A stretch of 35,147 nt of DNA from a virus: positions 1-35,147 of the IMG/VR virus record IMGVR_UViG_3300026184_000042. The stretch is one strand, 5' to 3'. Position numbers and translations under genes: made by a program. This document shows positions 7,467 through 32,031 of this stretch, in pieces (the stretch's first letter is position 1; each line of letters starts with the position of its first letter). The notes beneath the pieces were generated by a model that ran no database searches, was not told where the DNA came from, and saw only the letters and a program-made list of their open reading frames with translations.

Positions 7467-7506
7467 TTTTGTGGAGATATAACTCAACATTACTTCTCCA
7501 CAAAAC
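7467..7506 (+). repeat. 40-nt palindromic element, copy 1
   Basis: First of three related 40-nt elements (others at 15055-15094 and 31992-32031). Here the arms are perfect over 12 bases, counting G7466: GTTTTGTGGAGA (7466-7477) with TCTCCACAAAAC (7495-7506), with a 17-base centre. It ends 25 bases before the ATG of the 68-aa gene at 7532. It has T-rich bases on the 5' side and A-rich on the 3' side, the reverse of an intrinsic terminator. The terminal pair is G-C (GTGGAG/CTCCAC) where the other copies have A-T, a compensatory change. Confidence 0.75.
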
Positions 7507-7531
7507 GCCCGCCCCTTCCAAGGAGGCCCGT

Positions 7532-7738
7532 ATGCCGGAAGACCAGCCGCAAGAACTCGACATCCATGAACTCAATGACCTTCGGCGCCGTATCGTAAGC
7601 GGCGAGGACTGGTCCCGCCAGGAACTTCGCCGGGCGCTTCAGAGTATCCGCATCGACAAGGAGCGCAAGGGCCAGAAGGCGCAAAGCAACGGCGGCAGCA
7701 CGAAAAGCAAGCCCGCGAACCTCGACGATCTTCTCTAG
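7532..7738 (+). CDS. Hypothetical protein, 68 aa
   Basis: AAGGAGG at 7520-7526 selects ATG 7532 over an upstream in-frame GTG/ATG position. The product is mainly helical (…DIHELNDLRRRIVSGEDWSRQELRRALQSIRIDKERKGQ…) with a Ser/Lys/Gly-rich linker and a short acidic end LDDLL. No family recognised. It is the first gene after the repeat-rich intergenic region and palindromic element copy 1, so it may head a transcription or processing unit. Confidence 0.65.
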   Translation: MPEDQPQELDIHELNDLRRRIVSGEDWSRQELRRALQSIRIDKERKGQKAQSNGGSTKSKPANLDDLL

Positions 7739-7749
7739 GCGGACACGTT

Positions 7750-8046
7750 ATGCCAGCGCAGAGAAGCTTCTACCGCTACCCCGAACACTACGCGGACTAT
7801 ATCCGGCGGGCCGCTGGTGGAGAGGACGTAGTCATAGAGGTTCCTACGGACAAGTCTGCTACCATCTCTCGTAACGAACTCTATAACTACCGCTACTCTC
7901 TTCGAGACGAAGTAAAGAACAACAACCCTGACCCGCAGGTTCACGAACTCCAGCGTATGGCCGAACGGCTTGTTTTCTCCATAGAAGATTCCGAGTTTGG
8001 CCGCAGGATTCGTATCTTTGTTCCCAAGGGTCTTAAATACCTCTAG
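7750..8046 (+). CDS. Hypothetical protein, 98 aa
   Basis: ATG 7750 follows the previous stop by 11 bases with only a weak AGGCGG site. The protein contains YPEHYADYIRRAAGGEDVVIEVPTD and a C-terminal beta-like segment GRRIRIFVPKGLKYL; it is charged and probably alpha/beta. No family recognised. Its place just before the nuclease-Sak4-SSB module suggests linked expression. Confidence 0.65.
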   Translation: MPAQRSFYRYPEHYADYIRRAAGGEDVVIEVPTDKSATISRNELYNYRYSLRDEVKNNNPDPQVHELQRMAERLVFSIEDSEFGRRIRIFVPKGLKYL

Positions 8047-8055
8047 GTATCCACC

Positions 8056-9003
8056 ATGCTCGAAGAGTCTCCTACTGTCCACGGACAGCCGAAGTCCGAG
8101 CTTTCGTTTCCGCAGGTCTTCGACGCAACTATGCTCCGCACCGCGAAGTCCTGCCTGCACAAGTTTTATTGGGAGTTCCTTCGGAACAAGGTAGCCACGG
8201 GTCTTAACCCCGACCTGAACGCAGGGGCCGCCTACGCCCGCGCTCACGAAGTTTTCCGTAAGAGCTACTACGGAGAAGAAGAGGAAGAAACGTCCTTTGA
8301 GGACGCTCTTCTCGACGGCGCGGCCGCCCTCATTCAGGAATACGGACTCGATGATCCGCCGAGCGACAGCCCGAAGCAACTCGACCGGATGCTTGCGGCC
8401 TACAAAGCCTATTACCGTCGCGAGTACCCGCCCACCTTTGACGACGTACATCCTTACATCATCAACGGACAGCCCCTCGTAGAGTTCTCTTTCGCAGAAC
8501 CTATTGAAGACGTTATCCATCCGGAAACCGGGGAACCCATTCTCTACGCGGGCACCTACGACATGATGGCCACCCATGCCGGTATGCTCTGGGTCTTTGA
8601 CGACAAGACCACTAAGCAGATGGGCATAACGTGGGCCGACCAGTGGAAGCTCCGCTCTCAGTTCCTCGGCTACATCTGGGGCGCACAACGCTTCGGCTAC
8701 GATGTTCAGGGCTACATCGTCCGCGGCACGGCAATTCAAAAGACTCAAATAAAGTTCGCCCAGGCCAAGCATCTTATCCCGAAGTGGCAGCTGGACCGCT
8801 GGTATGCGACCACCGTGCGCGAACTTCAAACCATCGTCAACGCTTGGAAGGAGGGTTTCTTCGACTGGAACTTCGACGACGCCTGTGCCAGCTACGGCGG
8901 ATGCCAGTTCCTCGATCTCTGCTCCGTCCCGAACCCCGACGACTATCTCCGTGGCAACTATGAAGAACGCTACTGGAGCCCCGTGAAAACCGAAAGCTAC
9001 TAA
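8056..9003 (+). CDS. PD-(D/E)XK exonuclease, Cas4/RecB-like with Fe-S-type cysteines
   Basis: 315 aa. Nuclease motifs are in order: H64 in AYARAHEVF, acidic E143 (VEFSF), D169 in GTYD, D182-x-K184 in WVFDDKT, and Q202-x3-Y206 in QFLGY. This is the RecB/Cas4 PD-(D/E)XK arrangement with its QxxxY helix. One early Cys (C33 in AKSCLHKFYW) and three late ones (C277-x5-C283-x5-C289) match the four-Cys layout of 4Fe-4S-stabilised Cas4/AddB nucleases. Expected role: metal-dependent DNA end resection, providing single strands to the Sak4-like protein two genes downstream. No adjacent cas1/cas2 or CRISPR array is present, so a Cas4 adaptation role is unlikely. Confidence 0.85.
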   Translation: MLEESPTVHGQPKSELSFPQVFDATMLRTAKSCLHKFYWEFLRNKVATGLNPDLNAGAAYARAHEVFRKSYYGEEEEETSFEDALLDGAAALIQEYGLDDPPSDSPKQLDRMLAAYKAYYRREYPPTFDDVHPYIINGQPLVEFSFAEPIEDVIHPETGEPILYAGTYDMMATHAGMLWVFDDKTTKQMGITWADQWKLRSQFLGYIWGAQRFGYDVQGYIVRGTAIQKTQIKFAQAKHLIPKWQLDRWYATTVRELQTIVNAWKEGFFDWNFDDACASYGGCQFLDLCSVPNPDDYLRGNYEERYWSPVKTESY

Positions 9004-9014
9004 GGAGAAGAAGA

Positions 9015-9353
9015 ATGAGCGAAAACGAAGACTTTAACGGCTACCAGCAAGCAGAAGCAGAAGAAGCCCTGGGGGGACAGGCACACTTTTCCGGCCACCC
9101 CCTTCTTTCTCAAGAGCACCTGAAGTCCGTCATCGAGCTTCGGAACCAGATGGCGCAGAAGGCCCAGGAACTCACCGCCTTCATCAACGGGGACGAAGAA
9201 GCTGTCTCCGAACCTCCTGAGTGCGTCCTGATCGTTCCCCCGTCCACGAACGCGGGCGGCTACATGGGAGTCGGCCTGTTCACCGTTCACGGCTCCTTCG
9301 ACGCGCTGCGCCAAGCCATCAACCTGCAGAACGCCATCGCTGGGAGCGAATAA
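9015..9353 (+). CDS. Hypothetical protein, 112 aa
   Basis: AAGGAGAAGAAG precedes ATG 9015. The first half is Glu/Gln/Ala-rich and helical (…SQEHLKSVIELRNQMAQKAQELTAFI…). The second half has a beta-like stretch (CVLIVPPSTNAGGYMGVGLFTVHG) and a final helix. It lies between the nuclease and Sak4-like genes and is probably co-transcribed with them; no family recognised. Confidence 0.65.
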   Translation: MSENEDFNGYQQAEAEEALGGQAHFSGHPLLSQEHLKSVIELRNQMAQKAQELTAFINGDEEAVSEPPECVLIVPPSTNAGGYMGVGLFTVHGSFDALRQAINLQNAIAGSE

Positions 9354-9354
9354 T

Positions 9355-10215
9355 ATGTCCGTTCCTGAAAGTATCCCTGGAGTCCGCGTCCTTCTCGAAG
9401 GAGAAACGGGCTCTGGAAAAACCCACAGCATCCGGACGCTTCATAACCTGGAAGGGATTGACGACATCTTCGTCATTTTCACCGAGCCAGGCATGGAGGT
9501 CCTAGCGGATCTCACTCACGACCACTACCACTGGACCTACGTCAAGCCCGTCGCCAGCAAGATGGAAAGCCTTATCGACAAGGCGCGCACCATGAACTCT
9601 ATGTCCTGGGACGGGATGCAAAAAGCCCTGCAAAACGACCCGAACAAGAAGGACTACGACGCTGGTGTCCGCCTCCTCGAAGCCATGCACAAGCCCGTAT
9701 GCGCTGAGTGCGGAAAGGAGTTCCCTGACGTCTCCGAATGGACCAACCGGCAAGTCCTCGTTTTGGACAGCCTTAGCGGTCTGAACACCGCAGCCATGCA
9801 GCTTATTATCGGCGGCAGTCTCGTCCGCTCCCAGCCCCAATGGGGCGCGGCGCAAGACACGGAAATGATGCTGATCAATAAGCTCTGCTACGACACTAAC
9901 GCCCACTTCGTTCTTACGGCCCACGTTGAAAAGATGCTTGACGAGATCAACGGCGGGCAGGTCGTTAAGGTCAACGCGCTCGGCAAAGCCCTGGCGCCGG
10001 AGATCCCGAAGAACTTCTCCGACGTGATCTACTGCTATCGCGTGAGCGACCAGTTCAAGTGGTCCACGGCTAGCACGGGCGTAGAGACTAAGGCTCGTAA
10101 CGTCCCCATTTCCGACAAGATCGAGCCTTCCTTCAAACAGATTATCCAAAAGTGGAGGTCCCGCTATGACGTAAAGCAAGAAGCCCAGAAGCAAGAAGCC
10201 ACCACGCAACAGTAG
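9355..10215 (+). CDS. Sak4-like RecA-fold ATPase / single-strand annealing recombinase
   Basis: 286 aa. Walker A GETGSGKT at 16-23 and Walker B VLVLDS (D139) sit in a minimal RecA core, with a likely sensor segment NAHFVLTAHVEK (about residues 182-193). Residues 117-120 are CAEC, a possible partial zinc site. A short RecA-like ATPase of this size next to an SSB-like gene and a nuclease is typical of phage Sak4 recombinases, which promote annealing together with SSB. The C-terminus is Gln/Lys/Glu-rich. Expected role: homologous recombination and repair of phage DNA. A generic AAA_24-type phage ATPase is the less specific alternative. Confidence 0.82.
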   Translation: MSVPESIPGVRVLLEGETGSGKTHSIRTLHNLEGIDDIFVIFTEPGMEVLADLTHDHYHWTYVKPVASKMESLIDKARTMNSMSWDGMQKALQNDPNKKDYDAGVRLLEAMHKPVCAECGKEFPDVSEWTNRQVLVLDSLSGLNTAAMQLIIGGSLVRSQPQWGAAQDTEMMLINKLCYDTNAHFVLTAHVEKMLDEINGGQVVKVNALGKALAPEIPKNFSDVIYCYRVSDQFKWSTASTGVETKARNVPISDKIEPSFKQIIQKWRSRYDVKQEAQKQEATTQQ

Positions 10216-10228
10216 TCTTGGCCAAGAC
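10215..10228. promoter_or_regulatory. 14-bp perfect palindrome before the SSB-like gene
   Basis: GTCTTGGCCAAGAC is a gapless palindrome beginning at the last base of the Sak4 stop codon and lying 24 bases before the SSB-like start. It could be a dimeric protein site or a short RNA hairpin. A palindrome of this length is expected about twice by chance in a window of this size, so only its position makes it notable. Confidence 0.3.
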
Positions 10229-10252
10229 AACACAGAAACAAGGTAGGAAACC

Positions 10253-10705: not shown

Positions 10706-10716
10706 CCGTCCTGAGG

Positions 10717-10742
10717 GAGGGGGCAGATGCCCCCTCTTTTTT
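10717..10742 (+). terminator. Rho-independent terminator after the recombination module
   Basis: Perfect 8-bp stem GAGGGGGC (10717-10724) and GCCCCCTC (10729-10736), loop AGAT, followed directly by six T (10737-10742). It begins 12 bases after the SSB-like stop codon. This is the strongest intrinsic terminator seen on the + strand and ends the nuclease-Sak4-SSB transcript, while the next gene starts 20 bases later. Confidence 0.92.
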
Positions 10743-10762
10743 CAGTCCGAAAGGGTAAAGAA

Positions 10763-12055
10763 ATGCAAGAAATAGGTGTCTCTGAAGTCGTTGTCGAAGA
10801 GAGAGTTCGTAAGCACTTTGACGAAAAGAAGATCCAAGAACTCAAGGACTCTATCCTCGAGAAAGGACTTTACCATCCCATCGTTCTCCAGGACGATTCC
10901 TCTACGCTCGTCATGGGTGAACGTCGCCTCCGCGCCATCCGTAGCATCTACGAAGAAGACGAAACTTTCTACCATAACGGACAGCCTGTGACCGTGGGCC
11001 ACGTTCCCTACAGCATCCTCTCCGAGATGGAAAACTATCAAATCCTCGAAGCGGAGCTGGAGGAGAACATTCTGCGCGACGACCTAGAGTGGCAAGAACG
11101 CGCAGAGGCTACCAGACGGCTCCACGAAATGCGCGTCTCTCAGTATGGCGAAGCGAACCATCGCGGCTCCGGCTGGTCCGTAACTGACACCGCGAGCGAA
11201 ATCCGTGGAGAGCAGGCCAAGGGTTCTCAAGTCTCTCGCGTCCAGCGCGACCTGACCCTGGCTGATCACCTAGACGACCCCATGGTTGCCGCAGCTAAGG
11301 ACGAGAAAGAAGCCCTGAAGATTATCGAAAGGGAAAAGAAGCGCGAGCATCGGCGCCAGCAAGCAGAGGAAGCCTCTACCTCCAACACTTCTCATAGTCT
11401 TCTCCAGGCCGACAGCCTAGAGACCCTGAAAACCTTCGAAGATGCTTCCTTCGATATCATCATAACCGACCCTCCGTATGGCATCGATGTCCACAAGGAC
11501 AAGCAGCGGGACGGTGAATATCATGAGTACGACGACAGTCCGGAGTATCTCGACCAGGTGGCCCAGGCCCTCGCGGAGGAAGGTTTCCGTATCTGTAAAC
11601 AGGAAGCTCATCTGTATATGTTCTGCGATATTCGCCAGTGGCCCTCACTCGCTGCCACGTTCTTCGTTAATGGCTGGGACGTTTGGGAGCGCCCCCTCAT
11701 TTGGTACAAAGGGAATACTGGTTCTTTTGGTGGAACTGACTGGGGACCGAGGCGTACCTACGAAGCTATCCTGTACGCCGCAAAAGGTCGGCGTCCTGTT
11801 ACGGCACTTTACCATGACGTCATTGACGTGCCGAAGCCAACCCAGACAGAACACCCTGCCGCAAAACCAGTTGAAGTCTACGAGAACCTTCTTCGGCGTT
11901 CCGCTAACCCCGGAGACAGAGTTCTCGATCCTTTTTGCGGAGGAGGCCCAGTGTTTGAAGCTTCTGAAAAATTCATGGCGATTGCCACAGGGATAGAGCT
12001 TAACGACGACTACTATGCCCTCGCCCACGAGAACCTGAGGAAGATCAATGAGTGA
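10763..12055 (+). CDS. ParB-like domain fused to DNA methyltransferase (N6-adenine/N4-cytosine)
   Basis: 430 aa. An in-frame ATG at 10727 lies inside the terminator hairpin, so ATG 10763 is chosen. Residues about 5-120 are a ParB/Sulfiredoxin-fold domain with GERRLRAI (52-59) and ENILRDDLEWQERA (101-114), the nucleotide-binding boxes of ParB. After a charged linker (about 180-205) comes a class beta amino-methyltransferase: catalytic DPPY (236-239), then HPAAKPVEVYENLL (364-377) and the S-adenosylmethionine site DPFCGGG (389-395). It probably modifies phage DNA at a specific sequence, protecting it from restriction or marking it. No partner restriction enzyme is nearby. What the ParB-like part recognises or does is unknown. 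Confidence 0.88.
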   Translation: MQEIGVSEVVVEERVRKHFDEKKIQELKDSILEKGLYHPIVLQDDSSTLVMGERRLRAIRSIYEEDETFYHNGQPVTVGHVPYSILSEMENYQILEAELEENILRDDLEWQERAEATRRLHEMRVSQYGEANHRGSGWSVTDTASEIRGEQAKGSQVSRVQRDLTLADHLDDPMVAAAKDEKEALKIIEREKKREHRRQQAEEASTSNTSHSLLQADSLETLKTFEDASFDIIITDPPYGIDVHKDKQRDGEYHEYDDSPEYLDQVAQALAEEGFRICKQEAHLYMFCDIRQWPSLAATFFVNGWDVWERPLIWYKGNTGSFGGTDWGPRRTYEAILYAAKGRRPVTALYHDVIDVPKPTQTEHPAAKPVEVYENLLRRSANPGDRVLDPFCGGGPVFEASEKFMAIATGIELNDDYYALAHENLRKINE

Positions 12056-12527: not shown

Positions 12528-15028
12528 CTGCGACACCCGTGCAGCCGGTAGGGTCTCGAAGTGCCAACATAATGCTCGTCGGCGAAGCCCCTGGCAAGGA
12601 GGAAGAGAAAGTAGGGTTTCCCTTCGTCGGCGGCTCGGGCCGCGAAGCTATCCGTATGCTGCACGAAAGTGGGTACAGCTTCCCTAACCTCTCCCAAGGA
12701 GACCTGGTAAATCTGGACAAACTTAGCCGGGACGACGTTAAGGAAATCTGGCAATACAGCGGCCTGTTCATCACCAACGTCGCCCGGCAGCGCCCTCGGG
12801 ACAATAAGATCGACAACTTCTTCGCCAACAAGACAGAAGCGAAGAAGGAAAGCCTTCCATACACCATGGGCCGCTATCCTCGGGAAGAGGTCCAGCGAGG
12901 AATGGAGAAGCTCTACGAAGAAATCAACTCCGTTCGCCCTAACGTAATCGTCGTCATGGGGAATACCGCCCTCTGGGCTCTAACCGGCGAGACCGGCATG
13001 ACCCACTGGCGCGGTAGCTTCATGACGTCTGTAGAAATCCATGGACACACCTATCTCGTTGTCCCTGCTTACCACCCAGCTGCGATTCTCAGGCAATGGT
13101 CCTGGAGAATCCTCTTTAAGCATGATATCTCTACCCGCGTTCTTCCTTACGCAGACGGGACACCTGTCCCTGTCCCTGAGTACGACTTCATTCTCCGCCC
13201 TGGCTTTGAACAGGCGCTATCGGTTCTGAACGAAATTCTGCTGAGAGCAGAGCAGGAAGAGCTGAAAATTTCCAGCGATATCGAGACAAGGCATTCCCAT
13301 ATTGCCTGCGTAGGTCTCGCCTGGAGCACCAGGGAAGCTATCTGCATTCCCTTCATGACTATAGAAAAGCCGCAAGGTTACTGGTCCCTTGACGAGGAAC
13401 TAGTTCTCGTAGAACGAATTAGGCAGATTCACCAACATCCGAATATTAGGATTACCGGCCAGAATTTTAACTACGACCAGTTCCACTTTGCTTGGTGGTG
13501 GGGCTTCATCTCTAACCTTAGCATCGACACCATGACGGCCCACCATACTTTGCATCCAGCGTTGCCTAAAGCCCTGGACTTTCTTTCCTCCCTCTACTGT
13601 TCCTACCACAGGTTCTGGAAGGAAGAGTCCGAGGAATGGGACCCGAATCTTGGCGAGGCCCAGTTCTGGGAGTATAACTGTAAAGATGTTTGCGTCACCT
13701 ACGAGGTTAGCGACGTTCTCGAAGAGGCAGTGAAGGAGAAAGGGAAGGAAGAACAGAACGCCTGGCAGCACGACATTGAAGACCGTGTCCTGCTCGCCGA
13801 ACTCCGGGGCGTGAACTACTCTAACGTCGAGCGGAAGCACGTTGGCCAAGAGTTAAGCACGAAGATGAATCAAGTGGCACAGTATCTAATCGACCTCGTG
13901 CCGCAGGAGTTCGTGGACCCTAAGGCTAAGACGCCATGGTACCAATCCCCTACTCAGCTAGGCAAGCTGTTCTATAAACAGCTAGGGATTAAGCCAGTCC
14001 TGCATCCAAAGACGAAGCGGCCCACGACCGACAAGAGCGCCATTCCGCAGATTGGTAAGAAGGAACCTCTCGTTAAGCCCATCTGCGACGAGATCGGTTT
14101 CTACCGCAGTCTAGGTGTCTACTATAACACCTTTGTCAAAGCACCAACAGATGCGGACAATCGTATCCGCTGCACCTATGACGTAAATGGCACGATTACG
14201 TTCCGCTTTTCTAGCCGCGCAAACCCAATCCGCACGGGGACTAACCTACAGAACATCCCTAAGGGTAAGGGCGGAGAATCTGATGAACGCAGGCTGCCCA
14301 AGCTCCGTAGACTCTTTAAGCCTGATAGCGGTTATATGATGTTTGACATCGACCTGGACCGCGCAGATATCCAGATCGTTGCTTGGGACAGCGGATGCGA
14401 GGCTCTAAAGAACCTGCTTAAACAGGGAGCAGATGTTCATAGCATCAACGCCCAGAAAATCTGGAATGACTCCTCTATTGGCGACGGCGATCCTCGCAGG
14501 CAGCTGATGAAGAACGGCGGCCATGCCACAAACTACATGTCCAGTGTACGCACCGTCGCAGCTACGCTAGGCGTCAGTGAGAAGAAGGCCGACGCTTTCA
14601 TGAAAGCCTACTTCGAAATGTATCCGGAAATTCTCGACTGGCATGAGACAATTGAACATCAGCTCTATCAGAACAGAACCATCGCTAATCCCTTCGGCTA
14701 TGAGATCACGTACTTTGATAGAATACAGAACGTGCTGACTGATGCCGTTGCCTGGATTCCTCAGTCCACCGTCGGCCTGCTCATTAACCGCATCTGGGCC
14801 AACATGGAAGATAATCTCCAGGACTGGGGCGTACAGGTCCTTATGCAGGTCCACGACTCGCTCGTAGGCCAGTTCCCTGTTCGCTACTACCCAGACATTC
14901 TTCCCTATATAGAGGAACAGACCCGCATCGTAATCCCCTACGAGGACCCTTTAACTATCTCCACAGGGATTAAGGTTTCTCGCGAATCCTGGGGCGATTG
15001 TAAGGAAGTTCCCTGGACGGCTGCGTAA
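12524..15028 (+). CDS. UDG-like domain fused to family A DNA polymerase with 3'-5' exonuclease
   Basis: 834 aa, start overlapping the dUTPase stop (ATGA). Residues about 12-210 resemble family 4/5 uracil-DNA glycosylase: GEAPGKEEEKVGFPFVGGSG (20-39), GNTALWAL (146-153), YHPAAILR (183-190); it has no cysteines, so it lacks the Fe-S cluster of true family 4 enzymes. Exonuclease motifs: DIET (D252, E254), N314…D318, Y384-x3-D388. Polymerase motif A carries catalytic D610 (with D615 and Q617 where Glu and Arg are usual). Motif B R659-x3-K663-x3-H667-x3-Y671 has His where Phe/Tyr is usual. Motif C is QVHDSL with D778 and Ser instead of the usual Glu. It is the replicative polymerase of the phage. 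Confidence 0.93.
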   Translation: MTATPVQPVGSRSANIMLVGEAPGKEEEKVGFPFVGGSGREAIRMLHESGYSFPNLSQGDLVNLDKLSRDDVKEIWQYSGLFITNVARQRPRDNKIDNFFANKTEAKKESLPYTMGRYPREEVQRGMEKLYEEINSVRPNVIVVMGNTALWALTGETGMTHWRGSFMTSVEIHGHTYLVVPAYHPAAILRQWSWRILFKHDISTRVLPYADGTPVPVPEYDFILRPGFEQALSVLNEILLRAEQEELKISSDIETRHSHIACVGLAWSTREAICIPFMTIEKPQGYWSLDEELVLVERIRQIHQHPNIRITGQNFNYDQFHFAWWWGFISNLSIDTMTAHHTLHPALPKALDFLSSLYCSYHRFWKEESEEWDPNLGEAQFWEYNCKDVCVTYEVSDVLEEAVKEKGKEEQNAWQHDIEDRVLLAELRGVNYSNVERKHVGQELSTKMNQVAQYLIDLVPQEFVDPKAKTPWYQSPTQLGKLFYKQLGIKPVLHPKTKRPTTDKSAIPQIGKKEPLVKPICDEIGFYRSLGVYYNTFVKAPTDADNRIRCTYDVNGTITFRFSSRANPIRTGTNLQNIPKGKGGESDERRLPKLRRLFKPDSGYMMFDIDLDRADIQIVAWDSGCEALKNLLKQGADVHSINAQKIWNDSSIGDGDPRRQLMKNGGHATNYMSSVRTVAATLGVSEKKADAFMKAYFEMYPEILDWHETIEHQLYQNRTIANPFGYEITYFDRIQNVLTDAVAWIPQSTVGLLINRIWANMEDNLQDWGVQVLMQVHDSLVGQFPVRYYPDILPYIEEQTRIVIPYEDPLTISTGIKVSRESWGDCKEVPWTAA

Positions 15029-15050
15029 GGAAGTTCCCTGGACGGCTGCG
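15001..15050 (+). repeat. 25-bp tandem duplication at the polymerase stop codon
   Basis: Bases 15001-15025 and 15026-15050 are identical (unit begins TAAGGAAGTT and ends GGCTGCG). The polymerase stop TAA (15026-15028) is the first codon of the second copy. Without the duplication, the frame would end at the TGA now at 15051-15053 after the same last residue. The duplication therefore leaves the protein unchanged and only lengthens the spacer to the next gene. Confidence 0.95.
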
Positions 15051-15054
15051 TGAG

Positions 15055-15094
15055 TTTCATGGAGATGTAATGCCTTGTTACGTCTCCATAAATC
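15055..15094 (+). repeat. 40-nt palindromic element, copy 2
   Basis: Arms ATGGAGATGTAA (15059-15070) and TTACGTCTCCAT (15078-15089) pair over 12 bases with one G-U wobble, and enclose the 7-base loop TGCCTTG. Flanking TTTC and AAATC match copy 3 read on the - strand. It ends 32 bases before ATG 15127. No T-run follows, so it is not a standard terminator. Confidence 0.75.
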
Positions 15095-15507: not shown

Positions 15508-16740
15508 ATGCGAAAGCTCGATCACTGGATTCGAGCGTATATGCGCTACACGAGGCACCTGGAGGCACCGGACGCTTTCCATTTCTGGACAGCAGTTTAT
15601 ACTCTCGCCGGGGCACTCCAGGGCAAGACTTGGATCGACATGGGGTTCTTCAAATGGAAGCCTAACTTCTTCATCATCTTCGTTGCTCCGCCAGGAATTG
15701 CGACCAAAAGTACTACGATCCGAGTTGGGACGCAGCTTCTCTCCCAGGTCGATAATGTACACTTCGGTCCGAAGTCCATCACGTGGCAGTTCATCGTAGA
15801 CGCGCTCTACAACTCAAAGGAACTCTACCAGACCCAACAAGGGGAAGACATAGAAACTTCTTCCATTACCTGCGTGGCGACAGAGCTAGGGACCTTCCTC
15901 GATCCTAAGAACCAGTTTCTTATCGACGCACTGGTCGATCTCTGGGACGGACAGGATGAAGGCTGGGGACGAGGCACTAAGGGAGAAGGTGAGAAGATTA
16001 TTAGCAACCCATGGATCAACATCGTGGGCGCGTGTACGCCAAGCTGGATTGCGGAAAGCTTTCCAGAATACGCCATCGGTGGCGGCTTCGTTTCCCGCAC
16101 GGTCTTTGTCTTCGCTGAAGGGAAGCGGAACCTAGTCCCCTATCCTAAGTACGACCAGGATACGGAAGACGAAGGGCTTAAGGCGGACCTCATTCACGAC
16201 TTGCAAGAGATCGCCAGGATGACAGGCGAGTTTGTCCTTACGGATGATGCCCTGGAATGGGGTCGTAAATGGTACGAGGAACTCTGGAAGAACCGACCTT
16301 CCCACCTCTCTAATGAGCGGATGGCTAGCTACGTCGCCCGTAAGCAGACGCATATCCATAAACTCGCAATGGTAATCTCTGCGGCCCAGCGTACCAGCCA
16401 ATCCATTACGCAAGAGGACCTAGAGACCGCTAACGAACTGATGACCGCTATCGAGAAATCAATGCACCGAGTCTTCGACCAGGTAACGGACAATACATAT
16501 GCCCGCTACGCTCAGGCCATCCTCGGTACATTGCGTGTTTCCGGCAAGCTGTCCAAACAGGACCTGTGGAGGGACCTCTTCCACATGATGGCTCACGATG
16601 ACTTTGAGAAAGCCCTCATGGCCTGTCAACAAGCCGGCTATGTCGAACTACGGGACAATGGCAGCGACCTTATTGTTGTCCCCCACCTGAGTACAACCGA
16701 TCAAGGTCCTGATACAGACGCCGCAACATTTTCTCGTTAG
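15508..16740 (+). CDS. DUF3987-like helicase/primase-associated ATPase
   Basis: 410 aa. Begins WIRAYMRYTRHLEAPDAFHFW, continues with PNFFIIFVAPPGIATKSTTI (about 51-70), where APPGIATKST is a divergent P-loop, then a likely Walker B region near ITCVATELGTF (about 118-128) and a helical C-terminal part with …GKLSKQDLWRDLFHMM… of winged-helix type (about 350-365). This is the layout of phage DUF3987-type ATPases that take the place of a replicative helicase or primase-helicase. No zinc-binding primase domain is seen. It is the last + strand gene and overlaps the convergent - strand gene by 71 bases. Confidence 0.7.
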   Translation: MRKLDHWIRAYMRYTRHLEAPDAFHFWTAVYTLAGALQGKTWIDMGFFKWKPNFFIIFVAPPGIATKSTTIRVGTQLLSQVDNVHFGPKSITWQFIVDALYNSKELYQTQQGEDIETSSITCVATELGTFLDPKNQFLIDALVDLWDGQDEGWGRGTKGEGEKIISNPWINIVGACTPSWIAESFPEYAIGGGFVSRTVFVFAEGKRNLVPYPKYDQDTEDEGLKADLIHDLQEIARMTGEFVLTDDALEWGRKWYEELWKNRPSHLSNERMASYVARKQTHIHKLAMVISAAQRTSQSITQEDLETANELMTAIEKSMHRVFDQVTDNTYARYAQAILGTLRVSGKLSKQDLWRDLFHMMAHDDFEKALMACQQAGYVELRDNGSDLIVVPHLSTTDQGPDTDAATFSR

Positions 16741-19700
16741 GCAGCCCGCGTTCCGTGAGATTTCTCCGCCGCGCCCGTTGCTGGATGCTCTGGTAGATGT
16801 CGTCATAACTGATGCGCAAGGCCGGGCTCGGGACGTTCTTGTTAAACTCCCGTACGGCCTTCCTTGCATCTGCGACACCTTCTCTATCTCCAATCCGTCG
16901 AGCGTAAGCAAAGTCCTCCATGAGCAGGGTCCGCCTAGTCAGCCAGTACCTACGAGCATTATGCTTCGCGGCCCGAACCTCGTATGCCTCGTTCTTCCGA
17001 GTAGGCGGAAATCCAAGAGCCTGGGCCACCTGTTCTGCTCGATGCTCCAGGTCGTAAGGATCGAAGTCGATAAGCTGGGCACCGCCCCGAAGCGTTTCTT
17101 CCCCACGTGTTCCGTACCTGATTGCGCTGCTGGCGTTCTTTAGCATCGTCGGCATGGCCCGCTCCCAGCGCTTCCAGCTATCGGGGTTCGGGTCAGTCAT
17201 CGCCCGCCAGAAGCTGTAGGGGATTCCGAACACAGGACCTGCAACCTCGCTGATAGTCCTCGCAAACTTCGTATCCGGGTCCTGCCCCTGAGCAGCTAAG
17301 GGCTCTATCCCAGGCGGGAACATGCCCATGGATAACGAACCGGAGACGTCCGTATTCGGAACCGGAGCGCCGAAGGCCTCAAGAACGTGAAGCGGCCCGA
17401 GCCCGAAGTACCGGCTCCAGCCATGCATCACGATATCCGGATTATCGGTAATCCCAGATGCCAGCTCTCGCAAGTCCTCCTGGATGTTCACCCGTGGGTT
17501 CTCCATCCCCATCGCCTGCTTGAACTTAGACCCTACGTTGTTGATAATATCCATAATGACTTCGGCAAACGGAAGCCCCTGCAAGCCCGCCGCCATACCG
17601 AGCATGAGCCAGAAACGCATCGCCGTGCCGCTACCATGCCGACCTGCGGCCAAGTACGACGCGTGCTGCATGAACTGCCAGAAAAGGAAGAACACGCTCT
17701 TCTTCCCGCGCATAAACTTAGGCCGGTTCCACTTCGCGTACTCGAACATAGTCGCCCGAACAGCCGCTCGGCCCGCGTCATACGCCTGCTCATACGTCTC
17801 CCCTCTCTTCATCGCGAGGCGCATAGCAGCCGTAAACGTTACCTGACGGTTATACTGTTCGGCCTTCGTGAACATCCATCCGCCATAGTAACTGACGCCG
17901 TTCATTAACCGCGTCGCTCGGTCCTGCGGCATGATGCGCTGGAGGACAGAACCCTCAGCCGCACCACTGATCTCCGTACTCAACGACTCGTTAATGAAGC
18001 CCTCGTTCATACCGTCCATAAGACCCTGCTGGAGCCAATCCTCTGCATCACTCTTTCGTCCACGCAGAAGATTTGCCACAGTCTTGAACGCTCGCCCAAT
18101 TTCCCTTACAGAGGCCCCGTCTCCATACCTGTCCGCAAGGTATGGATAGGCAACCATCGGGACCTGGGTAAGGTTCACCGCGGCGCTTCGTGGGTTAAAC
18201 CCGAGATACCACATGAAGCCTGCGGCACGAAGCTGGGCCCACTCAGACCGTGGATTCATGATCCACTCATAGTGTTCCTCTGTGTCCTTCCGCAGCTTGT
18301 CGAGTACGACGGTATCCGTATCGTTCGCGCTCTCTTTCAGTCGGTCCGACATTACCTGCATATCATTGATTTCCTTCTGCATATCCAAGTAATGTTCGAT
18401 CCGTGCAAGGTGCCCACCAGCGTTCGCCATATAGCTGGCGTAGGTCCGCAAGGCATCCGCGCTGAAGCCCTCGATCCCCTTCCGCTTGAGTAGGTGCCGC
18501 AGGAAGCTTCGGCCCGGCGACATGCGAAGGAAAATCTCCTTCAGACTCTCCTTCTGTGCTTCGCTTAGCTCCAGCTCGTTCTGGATGTTATCCATCAGAG
18601 TAGGCGGCATCCCCAGGAAGCTGAACTCACGATCATCCAGCTCTCCCTGGTGGATCTTCACGTCCTGACCCCCGAACTCCTGCTTCAACTCCTCAGCCCG
18701 GCCGCTCTGTGGATTCCGGCTCTCAAAGGTCTCGAAGGTAATAACCTCGCCCTTGTTATACGTCTTGCCGTTATACTCAATTCCGTCCGCGTTCGCAAAG
18801 ACGCCGATGCTGAACTTACCGAAGCGCATCAAAGGGAAGTAATTTCGGTTCCGCAGCTGTTCAAACTGCTGGTCGATCTCGTTCAGGCGGCTATCGAGAA
18901 AGGTCCCAGAACGCCCGGTAACTCCGAACTCCCGCTCGATGATATCCCATCTCGCCGCAGGCTGCCCACCGAGCTGTTCCCATCGCTGCAACACTCGATC
19001 CGCAAGGTCGGCATCCTCCAAGGTCTCCCGCGCGACGTTGTACTTCAGACCTCGCTCCATGCGGTTCATTAACTGCTGCATGGATTTATCAATCTCCCAG
19101 AACATGTCCCTGGTCTCTTCGTCGAGCTTAATCCCCTTCTGGTCAAACAGCTCCTGAAGCTCCTGTGGAGAAAGCCTCCTTCCGAGTTCATCGCTGCGAA
19201 GCGTACTCTCGAAGAGGGCCTTACTGAGATTTTGACTCCTGGTCTTACCCAGTCGGTTCCAGCGACTCACCGTCCCTTCTGCACTATTAAGAACCTCGCT
19301 CTTCGTGTTCCACCACCGAGCAACGGTCTCATAGTACCGACGCATCGGCTCCAGACCGTACTCTTGACTAAGCTGGAGTGGCGTCAGGAAGAGCCGCTTG
19401 AAGTTGGCGCCCCAGACGGAGCCCAGGTTCTCCACGTCCTTGGCAAGCTGGGCCGTGTCGGTCTCACTAATATCCAGCTTCGACATCAGGTTGTCTGTAT
19501 ATGCCGCCGCCCGGAAGCGGTAACTCCGCCCACTATCTGCATGGCTCGTAACATACTGACGCTGAGAGAACCTGGGCATCGGCCCGCCCTGGAAGTACCG
19601 ATGCATATCCTTCAGGATGCTCCGAATCTCGTCATTCGTCAGCTTGAGATCGGGCATGACCCGTCGGAGCACCCGGCGGAAGAAAGCAACAATGCGCCGG

Positions 19701-22189
19701 AACAGAGGCACGTTTGTCCCGTCTTCCGCAATCTTAGCGACGTACTCCTCAGCCGCCTTCATCTTGTCCTGCGTCCCATACTCCTGCATGACCTGATCAA
19801 GGTCGATGCTACGCTCGACGTGGGAGAGGAAGTCCTTTCTCTCCTGTTCCGTCATGAGCTGGTTGATACCCCCGTGCGCGACCATCTCATGCAGTAGGGT
19901 CTCTTTAGCCCGGCTTGGGGATTGAATATTATCCGCGACAATATAGATGTGGTTATTGTTCTTGTCGTAAATTCCCCTACTCCGCACCGCGATCTGTCCA
20001 ATGCGCTGCCCCCAGGGGAAGACCTCCGGGTCGAAGGACATGGCAACAGTGGTTTCAGGCGCGTTCGGGAAGTTCTTCAGCTCTTCGTCAATCGCATTCT
20101 TGACCTTATTAAAGTGATGATCTGTCATGCGGCTCCGGCGGACGAAGCGGTCTTTCTCCGCCTTACCTTCCATAAAGTCATCCAGATTGACCTCATCCGG
20201 ATCGTAACCGAGCTTCCGAAGCTCTTCCTCTGCGACCTGATCAGACTGCTGTTGGGTCTGCGCTTGCTGCCCTTCCTGCGCCCTGCGCCGTTCTACTCGA
20301 CGGCGGGCCTCTTGCGCCTCCTCGCGATTGCTTCTCCGCTGCTGCCCGCGATCCCTGGACAGTTTAGTCTGCTCCGCTTCCGGGAGAGAACGTACTATCT
20401 CTTGCCGAACCGCCTCGTAGCGATCCTTCCACTCAGTACGGATGTTAGAAGGCTGCGCCTGGTACTCCCTGTCCAGTTGCTGAACCGCTTCAACCTTTTC
20501 ATCCGTATCGACCTCAAGGATACTAAGGCTCGCTTCTTGCCCCTCCGCGTTCATTACGAAGTCTTCGAACAGACTGCTTCCCTCAGCGGCCTCACCAGCA
20601 GGGATGACCTCTTCTTGGACACCTCGTGTACCCTTCTCAGTGATCTCGGGCTCAGTGGTCTGTTCAGGAGCGGAGACATCCACCTCTTCGAGACTGATGG
20701 GCTCCTGTCCAGTCTCCTGCCGGATCATATCTAAGAGCGGCGCAGAGGTCTCATCTACAGGGATATTCTCTGCCTTCTGCTCGACCTCACGCAGGAAGGT
20801 CTCCGTATCTACCTCGGAGATCCCGCCATCGTCCAGCGAATAGACCCCAGTCCCAGTATCCACGCCTGGACCTGGGGTTAGATCATCCGCTGCTTTTGCG
20901 TACTCCGACATGGCGGATGGCGGGGGAAGCCGCTTGGGCGGGGGCGGTAGCTGCTCAGGCTGCGAAATTTGCCCTGTGCTGGCCTGTTCGCTACGCTGGG
21001 GGCCTACCAAAGCACTCTCTTGAAAAGTGCGCTCACGGGCCGAAATTGCGCCCCCTAGGGTGCCCATACCGCCGCCAACAAACCCGCCCGCAGCAGTAGC
21101 GTTAAGGATGCGGCTCCGTCCCTCTTCCCCAAGAGCATCGTAATTCTCGTCGACAAAGTCCCGGGCAGCAAGGGCAATGACTTCCTGCGCCGCCTCAGTC
21201 CCCGCTTCCTGTCCACTGATCAGCGCACCCATAGCAGCGGCCCGCTTTGGTCGGGACAGCTGCCGAATACTCGACATGACCTTCCCGGTCATCTGCTTGC
21301 CGAAGCCCAGGTGCCGGGCCACAGTTACGATAGGAAGGGCTTCCAGCGACCCGGCGAGGGTGCCCGCCCCGATAGCAACGAGGGGCTCATCCTTCCCAGC
21401 CTCCCGCTGCTCTCCGTAGATGCCGCCGGTCTCCACAGTCGAGGCATAACCAACGACGCCGCCCAACGCCCCACGATTCGCCCACTGCTTCGCCTTAGCT
21501 TCCAGCATCTCCTTAGCAGACTTGCTAATCAGCTTCCTCGCAGCGAGTTTTCCAGTAATGCTCCCGATACCGCCACTGAGTAGGGCGCCGACGATGTTTG
21601 GTACTTGCTCGCCCAGATTACTCGCGGCCCACGAGATGAACTTTCCAGGAGAGTCGATATCTTCGACCTTCTCCACTTCTGGGGCGTACTGCTCAGCTTC
21701 CCGCATGAGCCTGTCGTACTCCCGCATCTGCTCCTCGGCGAAGTCCTCAAAGCCAAGGGCACTAGATGCAGCGCCCAGGCCACCATAACCCAGCGCAGCA
21801 GTCTGATACCACCCTCGCTTCAGACCCTTCATGAACTCGCCACTTTCAGCTTCCGGCTGTGGCTGCGGGACGCGATATGGAACCCCGTAAGGCCCAACCT
21901 TAAAGCTCTCCCTCTGCGCGAAGGAGACAGTTTCAGGGTCCTTTACCTCCTCCAGCATGGAGCGGTCGAACTTCTGAGGCTCTACCTCCTGCACTTCCGG
22001 TCGCTGAGACTGGGCCGGTTGGCTCCCCTGCTGCCCCTGCCGCTCGACAGGAACAATAGGTTGGTCCCCCAGATTCTGGCCCTCGTCTTTCCGCTCACCC
22101 TGGTTAGGCTGCGGGCCCGGCTGCGGGGCATTCGCAGACCCTACCTCCTCGAACATATTTCTGTTCAGACGCCTTCCCTCTGCCATCAT
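16670..22189 (-). CDS. Giant PLxRFG polyvalent protein, likely DNA ejection/internal virion protein with peptidase-like domain
   Basis: 1839 aa, starting at tandem ATGs (22189 and 22186) that overlap the stop of the upstream gene. Residues 1-115 are Gln/Pro/Glu-rich; 195-385 contain several Gly-rich hydrophobic segments (GALLSGGIGS, ALGGVVGYAS, AAGGFVGGGMGTLGG), possibly membrane-active; 400-660 are low complexity and charged. LLHEMVAHGG (765-774) gives H767, E768, H772, the HExxxH variant seen in polyvalent-protein metallopeptidases. The literal PLxRFG motif is PLMRFG at 1119-1124, with the family-typical FNPRSAAVNLTQVP at 1331-1344 and AEQYNRQVT at 1443-1451. Such proteins are packaged and injected with DNA to act in the new host. 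It lies with other ejection proteins at the end of the late operon. Confidence 0.85.
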   Translation of the reverse strand: MMAEGRRLNRNMFEEVGSANAPQPGPQPNQGERKDEGQNLGDQPIVPVERQGQQGSQPAQSQRPEVQEVEPQKFDRSMLEEVKDPETVSFAQRESFKVGPYGVPYRVPQPQPEAESGEFMKGLKRGWYQTAALGYGGLGAASSALGFEDFAEEQMREYDRLMREAEQYAPEVEKVEDIDSPGKFISWAASNLGEQVPNIVGALLSGGIGSITGKLAARKLISKSAKEMLEAKAKQWANRGALGGVVGYASTVETGGIYGEQREAGKDEPLVAIGAGTLAGSLEALPIVTVARHLGFGKQMTGKVMSSIRQLSRPKRAAAMGALISGQEAGTEAAQEVIALAARDFVDENYDALGEEGRSRILNATAAGGFVGGGMGTLGGAISARERTFQESALVGPQRSEQASTGQISQPEQLPPPPKRLPPPSAMSEYAKAADDLTPGPGVDTGTGVYSLDDGGISEVDTETFLREVEQKAENIPVDETSAPLLDMIRQETGQEPISLEEVDVSAPEQTTEPEITEKGTRGVQEEVIPAGEAAEGSSLFEDFVMNAEGQEASLSILEVDTDEKVEAVQQLDREYQAQPSNIRTEWKDRYEAVRQEIVRSLPEAEQTKLSRDRGQQRRSNREEAQEARRRVERRRAQEGQQAQTQQQSDQVAEEELRKLGYDPDEVNLDDFMEGKAEKDRFVRRSRMTDHHFNKVKNAIDEELKNFPNAPETTVAMSFDPEVFPWGQRIGQIAVRSRGIYDKNNNHIYIVADNIQSPSRAKETLLHEMVAHGGINQLMTEQERKDFLSHVERSIDLDQVMQEYGTQDKMKAAEEYVAKIAEDGTNVPLFRRIVAFFRRVLRRVMPDLKLTNDEIRSILKDMHRYFQGGPMPRFSQRQYVTSHADSGRSYRFRAAAYTDNLMSKLDISETDTAQLAKDVENLGSVWGANFKRLFLTPLQLSQEYGLEPMRRYYETVARWWNTKSEVLNSAEGTVSRWNRLGKTRSQNLSKALFESTLRSDELGRRLSPQELQELFDQKGIKLDEETRDMFWEIDKSMQQLMNRMERGLKYNVARETLEDADLADRVLQRWEQLGGQPAARWDIIEREFGVTGRSGTFLDSRLNEIDQQFEQLRNRNYFPLMRFGKFSIGVFANADGIEYNGKTYNKGEVITFETFESRNPQSGRAEELKQEFGGQDVKIHQGELDDREFSFLGMPPTLMDNIQNELELSEAQKESLKEIFLRMSPGRSFLRHLLKRKGIEGFSADALRTYASYMANAGGHLARIEHYLDMQKEINDMQVMSDRLKESANDTDTVVLDKLRKDTEEHYEWIMNPRSEWAQLRAAGFMWYLGFNPRSAAVNLTQVPMVAYPYLADRYGDGASVREIGRAFKTVANLLRGRKSDAEDWLQQGLMDGMNEGFINESLSTEISGAAEGSVLQRIMPQDRATRLMNGVSYYGGWMFTKAEQYNRQVTFTAAMRLAMKRGETYEQAYDAGRAAVRATMFEYAKWNRPKFMRGKKSVFFLFWQFMQHASYLAAGRHGSGTAMRFWLMLGMAAGLQGLPFAEVIMDIINNVGSKFKQAMGMENPRVNIQEDLRELASGITDNPDIVMHGWSRYFGLGPLHVLEAFGAPVPNTDVSGSLSMGMFPPGIEPLAAQGQDPDTKFARTISEVAGPVFGIPYSFWRAMTDPNPDSWKRWERAMPTMLKNASSAIRYGTRGEETLRGGAQLIDFDPYDLEHRAEQVAQALGFPPTRKNEAYEVRAAKHNARRYWLTRRTLLMEDFAYARRIGDREGVADARKAVREFNKNVPSPALRISYDDIYQSIQQRARRRNLTERGLPNEKMLRRLYQDLDRLYSGGGQQ

Positions 22190-24859: not shown

Positions 24860-24861
24860 AT

Positions 24862-27117: not shown

Positions 27118-27130
27118 AGCTTATATACTC

Positions 27131-28282: not shown

Positions 28283-28285
28283 GGC

Positions 28286-29373: not shown

Positions 29374-30854
29374 AGCGATTCACTCCAACTAGTCGAAACA
29401 TCGGAGTCCTCTACCCAGGTAGTATCATCCTTCGATGCCTCTGTCCAAATGGTAGAAGCCTTCCCTGCTTCCGTGAAGCCCGGGATGAGGCGAGCAGAGA
29501 TACCTTGAGCAGCGTCCGTTTCAAGCAACTGTGCGAGATCATAGGTTCGACGCGGCGTCGCAGAAAGCGCAGCAGAAGCCTCCCCTGTGAGGCCCAGCGT
29601 AAGCGTCCGAATTGCCGTAGCGGCAAAAGCCGTCTCAGTCTCCACGACCTGCCCAGCAGAAACAATTTGTTGGTTCCACTGAGTATCATCCAGGTCCCAT
29701 GCCTGGGTATCTTCATCCCAAGTATACCCAAACTGAAGAACGGGCTTAACGTCTAGCGCATACTCCCTCGTATAAGGCTGCGAAATGACGATCGAGGTAG
29801 CTACGGAAGCAGAAACACCGCGGGCCGCGGAAGTCTCTGTCGCCATACCGAGAACCGCAACCTTCGCGTTCCCGATAGGGAGTGCGTCTTGCGTCTCCGT
29901 AGCCTGCGAGACGCTTCGCGTCTTTGCCTTTCCGAGGGAGAACGCAGAACTAGTCTCTACGACTTGCCCTACTCGATTCCCCTTCGTCGGAGACACGTCT
30001 TGAGAGGCAGAAGTTTCTACGACTTGCCCAAGAGTAAGAGACTTCACAGTAGCAACTGTCTGCGCTGTCTCTGTACTAGTAGCCTGTCCAACAAGCTGCT
30101 CTGCTGCTAGCGTCGGCGTAACACTCTGCGAAGTAGAAACTTCTGCTGCAAGGCCAACAGAAGCAACCTTCGCCTTACCCACCGCCTGCGAAGTCTCAGT
30201 TTCCGACGCTTGATTAACGGTAACGGTTTGTCCACCGCCGCCCCCGCCGATGGGGTCGGCCTGGAAGTCTGTAATCCATTCCTGGCCGAGCAGGCTACCG
30301 CCATTCTTGACCACGCCCTGCCGGGTCTCGGTGTTGTTGAACGCCTCGGTGGCCGAGGCCTGAGCGACCCAACTTGGGCTGGACCCTGTTCCGCCGTGGA
30401 ACAGCTCGATGGTGTCGCCCTCGGCTTCGACCTTCACCCAGCCATGCCGAATATTGGACTCGGCGCCGTCCTGCTGAATCAGGTCGGTATAGCTGCCACC
30501 GTCGATCTTCGTGACGCGGGAGCCGAGGCCGCCCGTTCCGTACCAGCGCCAGCCGATGCCGTTGCTGTTATCCGTCAGGCGGACGCAGGCGAACATATTC
30601 CGCATTGGGAGGTCCTGCGAAATGTCCGCCATCCGCAGGACGGTCAGGTGGTCGACGCTGCCCTGGTCATCGCAGTGGTAGCCATCGTTCGCTGAGTTGA
30701 TGGCATCGAGTTCGTTCCCGTTCGGGGAATCACTACGAATCTCGTAGACGGTCGTGGTGCCGCTGATAAGCGCCCAGCTGGTGCCCACGTCCGGTGTGTG
30801 GTTCTCCAGCTTGGTCCCAACAGAGTCGGTAAAGGTGTCCTCGAAGGCCGCCAT
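29370..30854 (-). CDS. Lectin-like virion protein with about 11 tandem 20-aa repeats
   Basis: 494 aa. Residues 1 to about 205 (…FEDTFTDSVGTKLENHTPDVGTSWA… to …NTETRQGVVKNGGSLLGQEWITDFQ) look like a concanavalin/LamG-type beta sandwich. After a run of Gly comes a tandem array with consensus close to GQAxETxxAxxVxxxKxxxV (20-22 aa), for example GQVVETSASQDVSPTKGNRV and GQVVETSSAFSLGKAKTRSV. About 11 copies are seen, interrupted by a Trp-rich insert (…YTWDEDTQAWDLDDTQWNQ…), and the end is also Trp/Asp/Ser-rich. It is probably a surface-exposed virion appendage or glycan-binding decoration. Confidence 0.65.
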   Translation of the reverse strand: MAAFEDTFTDSVGTKLENHTPDVGTSWALISGTTTVYEIRSDSPNGNELDAINSANDGYHCDDQGSVDHLTVLRMADISQDLPMRNMFACVRLTDNSNGIGWRWYGTGGLGSRVTKIDGGSYTDLIQQDGAESNIRHGWVKVEAEGDTIELFHGGTGSSPSWVAQASATEAFNNTETRQGVVKNGGSLLGQEWITDFQADPIGGGGGGQTVTVNQASETETSQAVGKAKVASVGLAAEVSTSQSVTPTLAAEQLVGQATSTETAQTVATVKSLTLGQVVETSASQDVSPTKGNRVGQVVETSSAFSLGKAKTRSVSQATETQDALPIGNAKVAVLGMATETSAARGVSASVATSIVISQPYTREYALDVKPVLQFGYTWDEDTQAWDLDDTQWNQQIVSAGQVVETETAFAATAIRTLTLGLTGEASAALSATPRRTYDLAQLLETDAAQGISARLIPGFTEAGKASTIWTEASKDDTTWVEDSDVSTSWSESL

Positions 30855-31124
30855 CTACCGCCCCCTGATCCGGCCCAGGCCGTCGCTGGTGAACTTGTTG
30901 GCAGCCGTCAGCACCTCGTCCACGGTCTTGTCGGCCTGCTCCCCCGTGATCGGCTTCGGGTAGCGCAGGACGAAGTACCCCTTTCCGCCTACCTCGGCGT
31001 AGGTAGCGGTCCAGTTCGTCCCCGCCTGCACCGGGTAGATGTTGCCACGCTCGTCGGTGAAGGCCTCCTTCACATACAGGAAGCCTCCGTCCGCGAACTT
31101 GGGCGGGTACTGGAGCGGGATCAT
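30855..31124 (-). CDS. Hypothetical virion-region protein, 89 aa
   Basis: A GTG at 31136 is possible, but ATG 31124 overlaps the upstream stop (ATGA) and fits better: MIPLQYPPKFADGGFLYVKEAFTDERGNIYPV…. It appears to be a small beta-rich domain with a final helix (…GEQADKTVDEVLTAANKF). No family recognised. Position between a carbohydrate-binding protein and the lectin-like repeat protein suggests a virion role. Confidence 0.6.
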   Translation of the reverse strand: MIPLQYPPKFADGGFLYVKEAFTDERGNIYPVQAGTNWTATYAEVGGKGYFVLRYPKPITGEQADKTVDEVLTAANKFTSDGLGRIRGR

Positions 31125-31519
31125 AGCTGCGCCCACCCTGCCACGCCGGGCTCCCAGGTGTTGCCGGCGGTAGTGTTCTCCCAGGTCGCGCCGTTGTGCG
31201 TCACCCGTGCCGGGTCACCGCGCACGTCGGTCAGCGGGTAAGCGTCCTGGCTGCCGCTGGGCTGAATCCAGGCCGGAGGCTCCGCCGGGTCCGGCTCACC
31301 CTCGCGCACGATCCCGAACAGGTCGAGGTACCAGCGCCGCAGGGGCGACAGCGTCCCATCTGCGTTCTCGCTCCCGACGAGCGTGTGGCTGGACCGCTCG
31401 CCCACCTCCCCGATCTTCGCCACGCTGGCATTCGTCGCCACGCTCTTGGCCTGATCGTAGATGTGGTTAGCGTCCGCCTCGTTGTCAAAGGTGGCATGGA
31501 CAAGGACGACATAGGCCAT
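31121..31519 (-). CDS. Protein with C-terminal carbohydrate-binding module (CBM5/12-like)
   Basis: 132 aa, AAGGAG before ATG 31519. The first 80 residues are an unknown small domain (…YVVLVHATFDNEADANHIYDQAKSV…). Residues about 82-130, PAWIQPSGSQDAYPLTDVRGDP-x-RVTHNGATWENTTAGNTWEPGVAGW, match the short chitin/polysaccharide-binding fold in which W-x-Q-P…AY-x…V-x-HNG-x-W…N-x-WEPG-x-x-GW residues form the binding face. It may help the virion bind polysaccharide on the host or its surroundings. Confidence 0.75.
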   Translation of the reverse strand: MAYVVLVHATFDNEADANHIYDQAKSVATNASVAKIGEVGERSSHTLVGSENADGTLSPLRRWYLDLFGIVREGEPDPAEPPAWIQPSGSQDAYPLTDVRGDPARVTHNGATWENTTAGNTWEPGVAGWAQL

Positions 31520-31535
31520 GAGCTATCTCCTTGCG

Positions 31536-31976
31536 TTAGCTAGCCCGATAGAAACCGGCACTGGCGATCTGCGCCGTCAGGTCCGAACCATCAGTCGTAA
31601 CGGCGAAGTCATGGTGCGTCAGCGGAATACGGCCAGCGTCACTCGCACCTTCTTCGTAGAAGATAATCACCTTCACCAGCGTGTTGTCCGTAGTACCGCC
31701 AGCAGCAGTCCAGGTCTGGTCAGGAACGTCCGCATCGACCTGATTGTTGGCGTCATCGACAGAGACAGTACCAGTGAGCCCGGTCTTGCGCGCGTAGTTG
31801 GTAAAGTCCGCTTCCGTGTTGCCAGCGGCTCCAAGAAGCGCGGCCAGATCATCATAGTCGTCCAGAGTGTTATCTGCTTCTGCTGCCTTCAACAGCATGA
31901 CGCCCACGTTACTGCCCGCATCTCGGATCTTCTCAGCCACAGCACCCTTCGCGATATTAAAAACGCCATCAGCCAT
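31536..31976 (-). CDS. Conserved virion-region protein, 146 aa
   Basis: Start ATG 31976 with AGAGGGAAG upstream on the - strand. The sequence …GVFNIAKGAVAEKIRD…LLKAAEADNTLDDYDDLAALLGAAGNTEADFTNYARK… matches a small protein type common near phage structural genes, whose function is not established. The second half looks like a beta-rich domain. It directly follows palindromic element copy 3, which lies 15 bases before its start codon. Confidence 0.65.
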   Translation of the reverse strand: MADGVFNIAKGAVAEKIRDAGSNVGVMLLKAAEADNTLDDYDDLAALLGAAGNTEADFTNYARKTGLTGTVSVDDANNQVDADVPDQTWTAAGGTTDNTLVKVIIFYEEGASDAGRIPLTHHDFAVTTDGSDLTAQIASAGFYRAS

Positions 31977-31991
31977 TGGACTTCCCTCTTA

Positions 31992-32031
31992 GTTTTATGG
32001 AGATATAACGCCTCGTTACGTCTCCATGAAT
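31992..32031 (-). repeat. 40-nt palindromic element, copy 3
   Basis: On the + strand the arms are ATGGAGATATAACG (31997-32010) and CGTTACGTCTCCAT (32014-32027): seven pairs, a wobble and a mismatch, then five more pairs, with a 3-base loop. Read on the - strand it aligns without gaps to copy 2 (TTCATGGAGA-Y-GTAA … TCTCCATAAA). It starts at the stop codon of the holin-like gene and ends 15 bases before the start of the 146-aa gene, so it lies in the mRNA between two late genes. Confidence 0.75.

Follow-up and report, generated by a model that had tools for sequence, protein, structure and literature searches.

Genome-specific families of evenly spaced 40-bp DNA dyads in a group of phages: candidate sites for an orphan ParB-methyltransferase fusion

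The locus and its three dyads

The DNA analyzed here, called the window, comes from IMG/VR; the record has 35,147 bases and is probably incomplete, with early genes on the plus strand and late genes on the minus strand. Among its products are a uracil-glycosylase/PolA fusion, a DUF3987 primase, a ParB_N-methyltransferase and a UvrD-type helicase, and its structural module is related to that of LUZ24/tf-type podoviruses. The late arm ends with a 1839-aa protein (16670-22189) that has no match in Pfam; relatives have a similar giant gene at the same place. Just one record (L004) comes close to identity; at 99.96% it represents the same phage and thus contributes no independent evidence. The named relatives (Microcystis phage Mel-JY34, MW202489) are distant, with PolA at about 40%.

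Three 40-bp dyads, none assigned to a strand, are located in the window. The first (7466-7506, centre 7486) occupies the gap after the gene of a 62-aa basic protein, the second (15054-15094, centre 15074) lies directly past polA and the third (31992-32032, centre 32012) is flanked by two genes of the late arm. A first-pass annotation had reported palindromic copies at these three places, and all are found: the core TGGAGA-N17-TCTCCA has three exact matches in the window against 0.02 expected, and the 40-bp family gives three similar dyad pairs against none in 200 first-order Markov shuffles. Its other descriptive claims are accurate as well, namely that the copies occur in both the early and the late arm, stand shortly before start codons (about 16-33 bases), lack a terminator T-run and differ by GTGG/CCAC in copy 1 for ATGG/CCAT in copies 2 and 3. 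The inner stem of copy 1 is unpaired (T-T, A-C, C-A), TAAC/TTAC being nonetheless retained. The ungapped alignment in the direction of transcription has to be corrected in part: the family is real, but copies 2 and 3 are closer on the plus strand, where they are 88% alike, than in the transcription direction (78%). Since their best match is on the plus strand while their genes are opposite, the orientation of the dyads is not set by transcription.

The surroundings of two copies deserve description. The centre of dyad 2 lies 46 bp past the polA stop; a perfect 25-nt tandem duplication (15000-15049) spans the end of polA and shifts its stop codon, and without it the distance is 21 bp, which puts this dyad in the same slot as the polA-side copies of other genomes, centred 17-22 bp past the polA stop. 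The stretch from the 62-aa gene to dyad 1 contains an inverted repeat (AACCTTGGCCTATAAG ... ATAGGGTTGAAGGTT, 7392-7431), perhaps a terminator without T-run. The gene adjoining dyad 1 (7532-7738) codes for 68 aa in which an LRxR...DDLL pattern is conserved; this 68-aa protein has no family in PHROGs and occurs in nearly all relatives.

Dyad families in related phages

Alignment-based scans provided about 150 related loci, in which 40-bp dyads recurring inside one record were sought; shuffled DNA gave none. Multi-copy families were found in some 40 loci, one of which (L111) is a low-complexity repeat, and whole contigs of relatives were then retrieved for family counts. About 5-14 copies per genome are present in MW202489 and in fifteen genomes from IMG/VR. 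Another 25 genomes, retrieved as a second batch, yielded about a dozen further families, with about ten genomes lacking one, and a softer search added families in G021 and G022 (three copies in G022). Altogether, 30 other genomes carry a multi-copy family (31 with the window), with 4-14 copies per genome compared with three in the window. As the first-pass annotation anticipated, related phages conserve this kind of element, each in its own multi-copy version of different sequence.

Copies agree inside a genome, while sequences change between close relatives. Consensus halves vary by genome (e.g. TTTTTACCGgGATTAC, aTGGGaCGgTGATTAA, TTtaTGGAGAtgTAAC), and sister phages on the polA tree may carry very different sites (G026/G034, G031/G032). 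The shared plan, in distances from the centre, comprises an A/T tract at 17-20 bp, a block at 11-15 bp that is conserved and for the most part rich in G/C, and a TTAY-type block at 4-8 bp, the centre itself being free; the information profile is sharp over 40 bp, with nothing beyond 20 bp from the centre. A Desulfofustis phage (L203, OP947158) carries nine copies of a shorter, unannotated dyad (GCTATGTCCCAA-TTGGGACATAGC) across its genome, ending near 14 bp from the centre. In Microcystis phage Mel-JY34 (L005), a cultured relative that possesses the genes concerned, a multi-copy dyad family was looked for and none was found; one strong palindrome (TGGGGTGTAATTC...GAATTACACCCCA, 35377-35411) lies past its capsid gene. 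Vibrio phage VS-ABTNL-3 (L007) has three spread short dyads around CAATCG...CGATTG (182, 23368, 38809), which may be that phage's version of the family. The nick sites of phage tf and its end palindromes were considered as the same element and are different things. A search of open-licence papers for a description of these dyads found none.

Placement and spacing

Placement was analyzed for 220 elements from 31 genomes, the window and the Desulfofustis phage included. Called ORFs cover 93% of the DNA, yet 54% of dyad centres fall outside them. The elements occupy the gaps that separate a stop from the following start codon, at median distances of 24 and 38 bp as measured from the centre, and convergent gene boundaries are used no less often than others. 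The polA gene itself contains one copy in 13 genomes, mostly near codon 190 in the glycosylase-polymerase linker, and 12 of the 31 have a copy in the zone that separates the ends of the two arms. These two placements, together with free orientation, led to rejection of a promoter or start-codon element, which the first-pass annotation had listed among its candidates.

The dyad in the polA linker is encoded in frame (L118 10573, L133 10573, L147 10573, L077 4767 and others), so that the local amino-acid sequence is set by the DNA site. Across 30 genomes, the spacing of dyads is more even than that of gene boundaries drawn at random (Fisher p=6e-17, with crude gene calls).

A DNA site rather than an RNA hairpin

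The non-Watson-Crick pairs of the dyads were counted on the transcribed strand for 110 elements whose surroundings are transcribed in one direction. They are strand-neutral, with 126 G-T against 130 A-C (p=0.85), besides 77 A-A, 75 T-T, 73 A-G and 74 C-T. Terminator-like hairpins of the same genomes, found by a criterion not favouring G-T, served as control and contain 249 G-T against 118 A-C, which differs from the dyads at p=4e-6. Strand-neutral mismatches, set against a two-fold G-T preference in terminators, show that the dyads are not maintained as RNA hairpins; as judged by sequence comparison, they are double-stranded DNA sites whose symmetry is at the DNA rather than the RNA level. A hairpin for RNA processing, stability or translation, proposed in part by the first-pass annotation, is therefore extremely improbable: the dyads can be folded on paper and the window copies stand before start codons, but the G-U preference is absent although the control reveals it, and dyads occur at convergent ends and in either orientation. 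Of the candidate functions initially listed, a site for a phage protein is the one that appears probable.

Candidate DNA-binding proteins

The window gene at 10727-12055 (plus strand) encodes a ParB-like NTP-clamp domain, a helix-turn-helix and an N6/N4 DNA methyltransferase, here called ParB-MTase, which sequence comparison favours as the dyad binder. The clamp domain matches PF02195 (E=1.9e-8), with boxes II and III visible. The ParB part aligns with Spo0J over residues 26-199, covering clamp and helix-turn-helix (E=8e-9), and with Noc over 12-209, while Pfam HTH_ParB is matched only weakly (E=0.04, one of six members). The methyltransferase part matches CcrM, M.BceJIV and MboIIA, and methyltransferase-domain matches fill the Foldseek list for the protein. 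ParA, sought via PF13614, was found in none of 20 genomes, some of them fragmentary records, and in all 14 control genomes.

The other candidate is the 62-aa basic protein (7165-7353, plus strand), which has a GRR/GRP-type arm and two helices, both confident in the structural model. It has no family in Pfam or PHROGs; weak matches (EndoAI, XACb0070, NikR, TCP), with Foldseek likewise giving only weak ones for the model, hint at a ribbon-helix-helix-like protein, a possible partner on the outer arms of the dyad. It is encoded by all 30 close-clade dyad genomes, window included (E 1e-7 or better). Window genes common to dyad genomes include those for the 62-aa, 68-aa and SSB-like proteins and ParB-MTase. 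The structural module is common to just 6 of 16, so the dyads accompany replication-side genes yet span unrelated late modules.

All 33 genomes with a dyad family have ParB-MTase, as do 11 in which no clear family is seen. Families thus occur in 33 of 44 relatives with ParB-MTase and in none of 14 without, which are G036, G038, G040, G042, G043, G044 and eight named phages (Fisher p=4e-7, kinship uncorrected). Kinship confounds this co-occurrence, since the genomes that lack ParB-MTase are nearly all distant or fragmentary. For partial loci alone the association is weaker, at 20 of 65 with the fusion and 0 of 8 without (p=0.07, kinship again uncorrected). In G038 and G040, ParB-MTase, the 62-aa protein and the dyads are all absent, while the polA, SSB-like, Sak4-like and nuclease genes are kept. 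Two genomes separate the candidates: G042 has the 62-aa protein with neither ParB-MTase nor a dyad family, and the Desulfofustis phage has ParB-MTase and a family, of the shorter dyad, with no 62-aa protein.

Divergence of sites and proteins

Mantel tests address the same choice from sequence divergence. In a first test on 16 genomes, the 62-aa protein varied with the sites (r=0.35, p=0.001). On 30 genomes, the whole site singles out no protein: the 62-aa protein reaches a partial r of 0.12 (p=0.04), below PolA and the SSB-like protein, and PolA at least equals ParB. Segments of the site were examined by partial Mantel tests on the same 30 genomes, controlled for the SSB-like, nuclease and Sak4-like proteins. 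With about a dozen such tests run, a post hoc inner/outer split and small partial effects, the divergence of the inner half-site (3-9 bp) tracks the helix-turn-helix of ParB-MTase (partial r=0.29, p=0.0003), compared with -0.02 for the 62-aa protein and -0.05 for PolA. Within ParB-MTase, the helix-turn-helix scores 0.22 and the clamp domain and methyltransferase 0.12 each. For the outer part PolA scores best, maybe because some copies lie inside polA. These comparisons of diverging sequences favour the ParB helix-turn-helix over the 62-aa protein; they are supportive, not decisive. The 62-aa protein as sole binder, favoured on 16 genomes, was abandoned when neither the 30-genome nor the segment tests singled it out. 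A residue-level code pairing a Trp in the strand with TGGGG sites was also discarded, one clade on the polA tree explaining most of it.

Alternative explanations and known systems

Sequence analysis establishes a genome-wide, genome-specific and evenly spaced dyad family that co-occurs with ParB-MTase, ParA being found in none of the 20 genomes searched. The best explanation, whose chances may be put at about even, is that the dyads are dispersed parS/OB-like sites for an orphan ParB clamp-methyltransferase, perhaps assisted by the 62-aa protein. Against it stand the 11 or so relatives that have ParB-MTase and no clear dyad family, and the length of the dyad, 40 bp where known ParB sites have about 16 bp. 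The rival closest to it takes up the suggestion of the first-pass annotation that the basic protein is the binder, the dyads being dispersed operators of a global repressor or road-block resembling L5 stoperators. The conservation of this protein alongside the sites, its gene directly before copy 1, a GRP-type arm that would suit the T-tract ends, the weak RHH/NikR/TCP-like matches and the 16-genome correlation speak for it. These fold matches are weak, however, and G042, the Desulfofustis phage and the 30-genome and half-site tests do not single it out, which makes this reading rather unlikely. L5-type stoperators of mycobacteriophages are likewise regulator sites specific to a phage and dispersed over short gaps between genes. 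They are 13 bp long, asymmetric and oriented with transcription, and belong to temperate phages, whereas the dyads are symmetric and strand-neutral, which excludes them from that class.

Even spacing could also reflect replication or genome organization, with the dyads as origins or as anchors of a nucleoid-like protein (as in MatP-matS) at even distances, and in most genomes one copy lies near replication genes (polA linker, post-polA, post-primase). No specific initiator or architectural protein was found, and this explanation is distinctly unlikely in its own right, though partly compatible with the ParB-MTase reading because ParB proteins organize DNA elsewhere. Spread by copying, as mobile palindromic elements or recombination hot spots, would explain the sequence common to copies within a genome and the in-frame copy within polA, reminiscent of Rickettsia palindromic elements, which sit in frame inside other genes. 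It is contradicted by even spacing, a constant 40-bp length and the joint turnover of all copies between close relatives, features that point to a trans-acting reader; mobility is thus highly unlikely.

Among known systems, KorB of plasmid RK2 loads at OB as a sliding clamp, which the small protein KorA locks (PMC11790492). The likeness lies in a ParB-family clamp, palindromic sites and a small DNA-binding partner, putative in the phages; OB has 16 bp, KorB has no methyltransferase and RK2 possesses the ParA-like IncC. Noc-NBS and chromosomal ParB-parS share homologous clamp and helix-turn-helix and palindromic sites, and Noc also lacks a ParA partner. Their sites are about 14-16 bp on bacterial chromosomes, they have no methyltransferase, and the membrane binding of Noc is not seen here. 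Dispersed centromere-like sites are known from N15, RK2 and pSM19035, and the ParB sites of prophage N15 and pMF1 are spread across the phage or plasmid genome concerned (PMC3235114); these replicons have ParA and maintain a plasmid, in contrast to the phages examined here. Compared with ParABS, a ParB with clamp and helix-turn-helix is present and a replicon-encoded ParA was not found (0/20). The several palindromic copies of an orphan ParB with dispersed sites (Noc-NBS or KorB-OB type) are found, 4-14 in relatives and three in the partial window. Phage fusions of ParB-CTPase and N6_N4 methyltransferase, the same domain combination as at 10727-12055, have been recorded with their function left open and a role in anti-defence suggested; the available part of that survey gives no DNA sites (PMC12704722).

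Proposed mechanism and implications

If the dyads are ParB-MTase sites, a helix-turn-helix dimer would read the inner ~18 bp (TAAC-N5-GTTA in the window), and the small basic protein may assist on the outer arms. By analogy with ParB and KorB, the NTP-bound clamp would close, leave the site and slide. A small number of loading sites, evenly spread, could in this way bring the methyltransferase, or a silencing or organizing clamp, to the whole genome, and the genome-specific dyad sequences would confine the system to the phage's own DNA. A more speculative extension, and a doubtful one, is self-marking: a nucleotide-gated ParB clamp would load at genome-specific dyads every few kilobases and slide with its fused methyltransferase, modification being aimed by the loading sites as well as by a short recognition word and thereby falling chiefly on the phage's own DNA.

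Both components are already known, ParB sites dispersed over a genome as well as fusions of ParB and methyltransferase in phages; the link of genome-specific dispersed dyads to such fusions appears to be new, as it was not found in the papers searched. Should the small basic protein bind instead, the dyads would still form a phage-wide network of genome-specific sites, of which no description was found. The dyads offer concrete candidate DNA sequences for ParB-methyltransferase fusions, which are common in phages and whose role is left open in the available part of the survey (PMC12704722), and, as each relative has its own site, they form a ready-made specificity series. If the ParB-MTase reading is true, ParB clamps would extend to a phage system without ParA, and the possibility would be raised of a methyltransferase delivered from loading sites.
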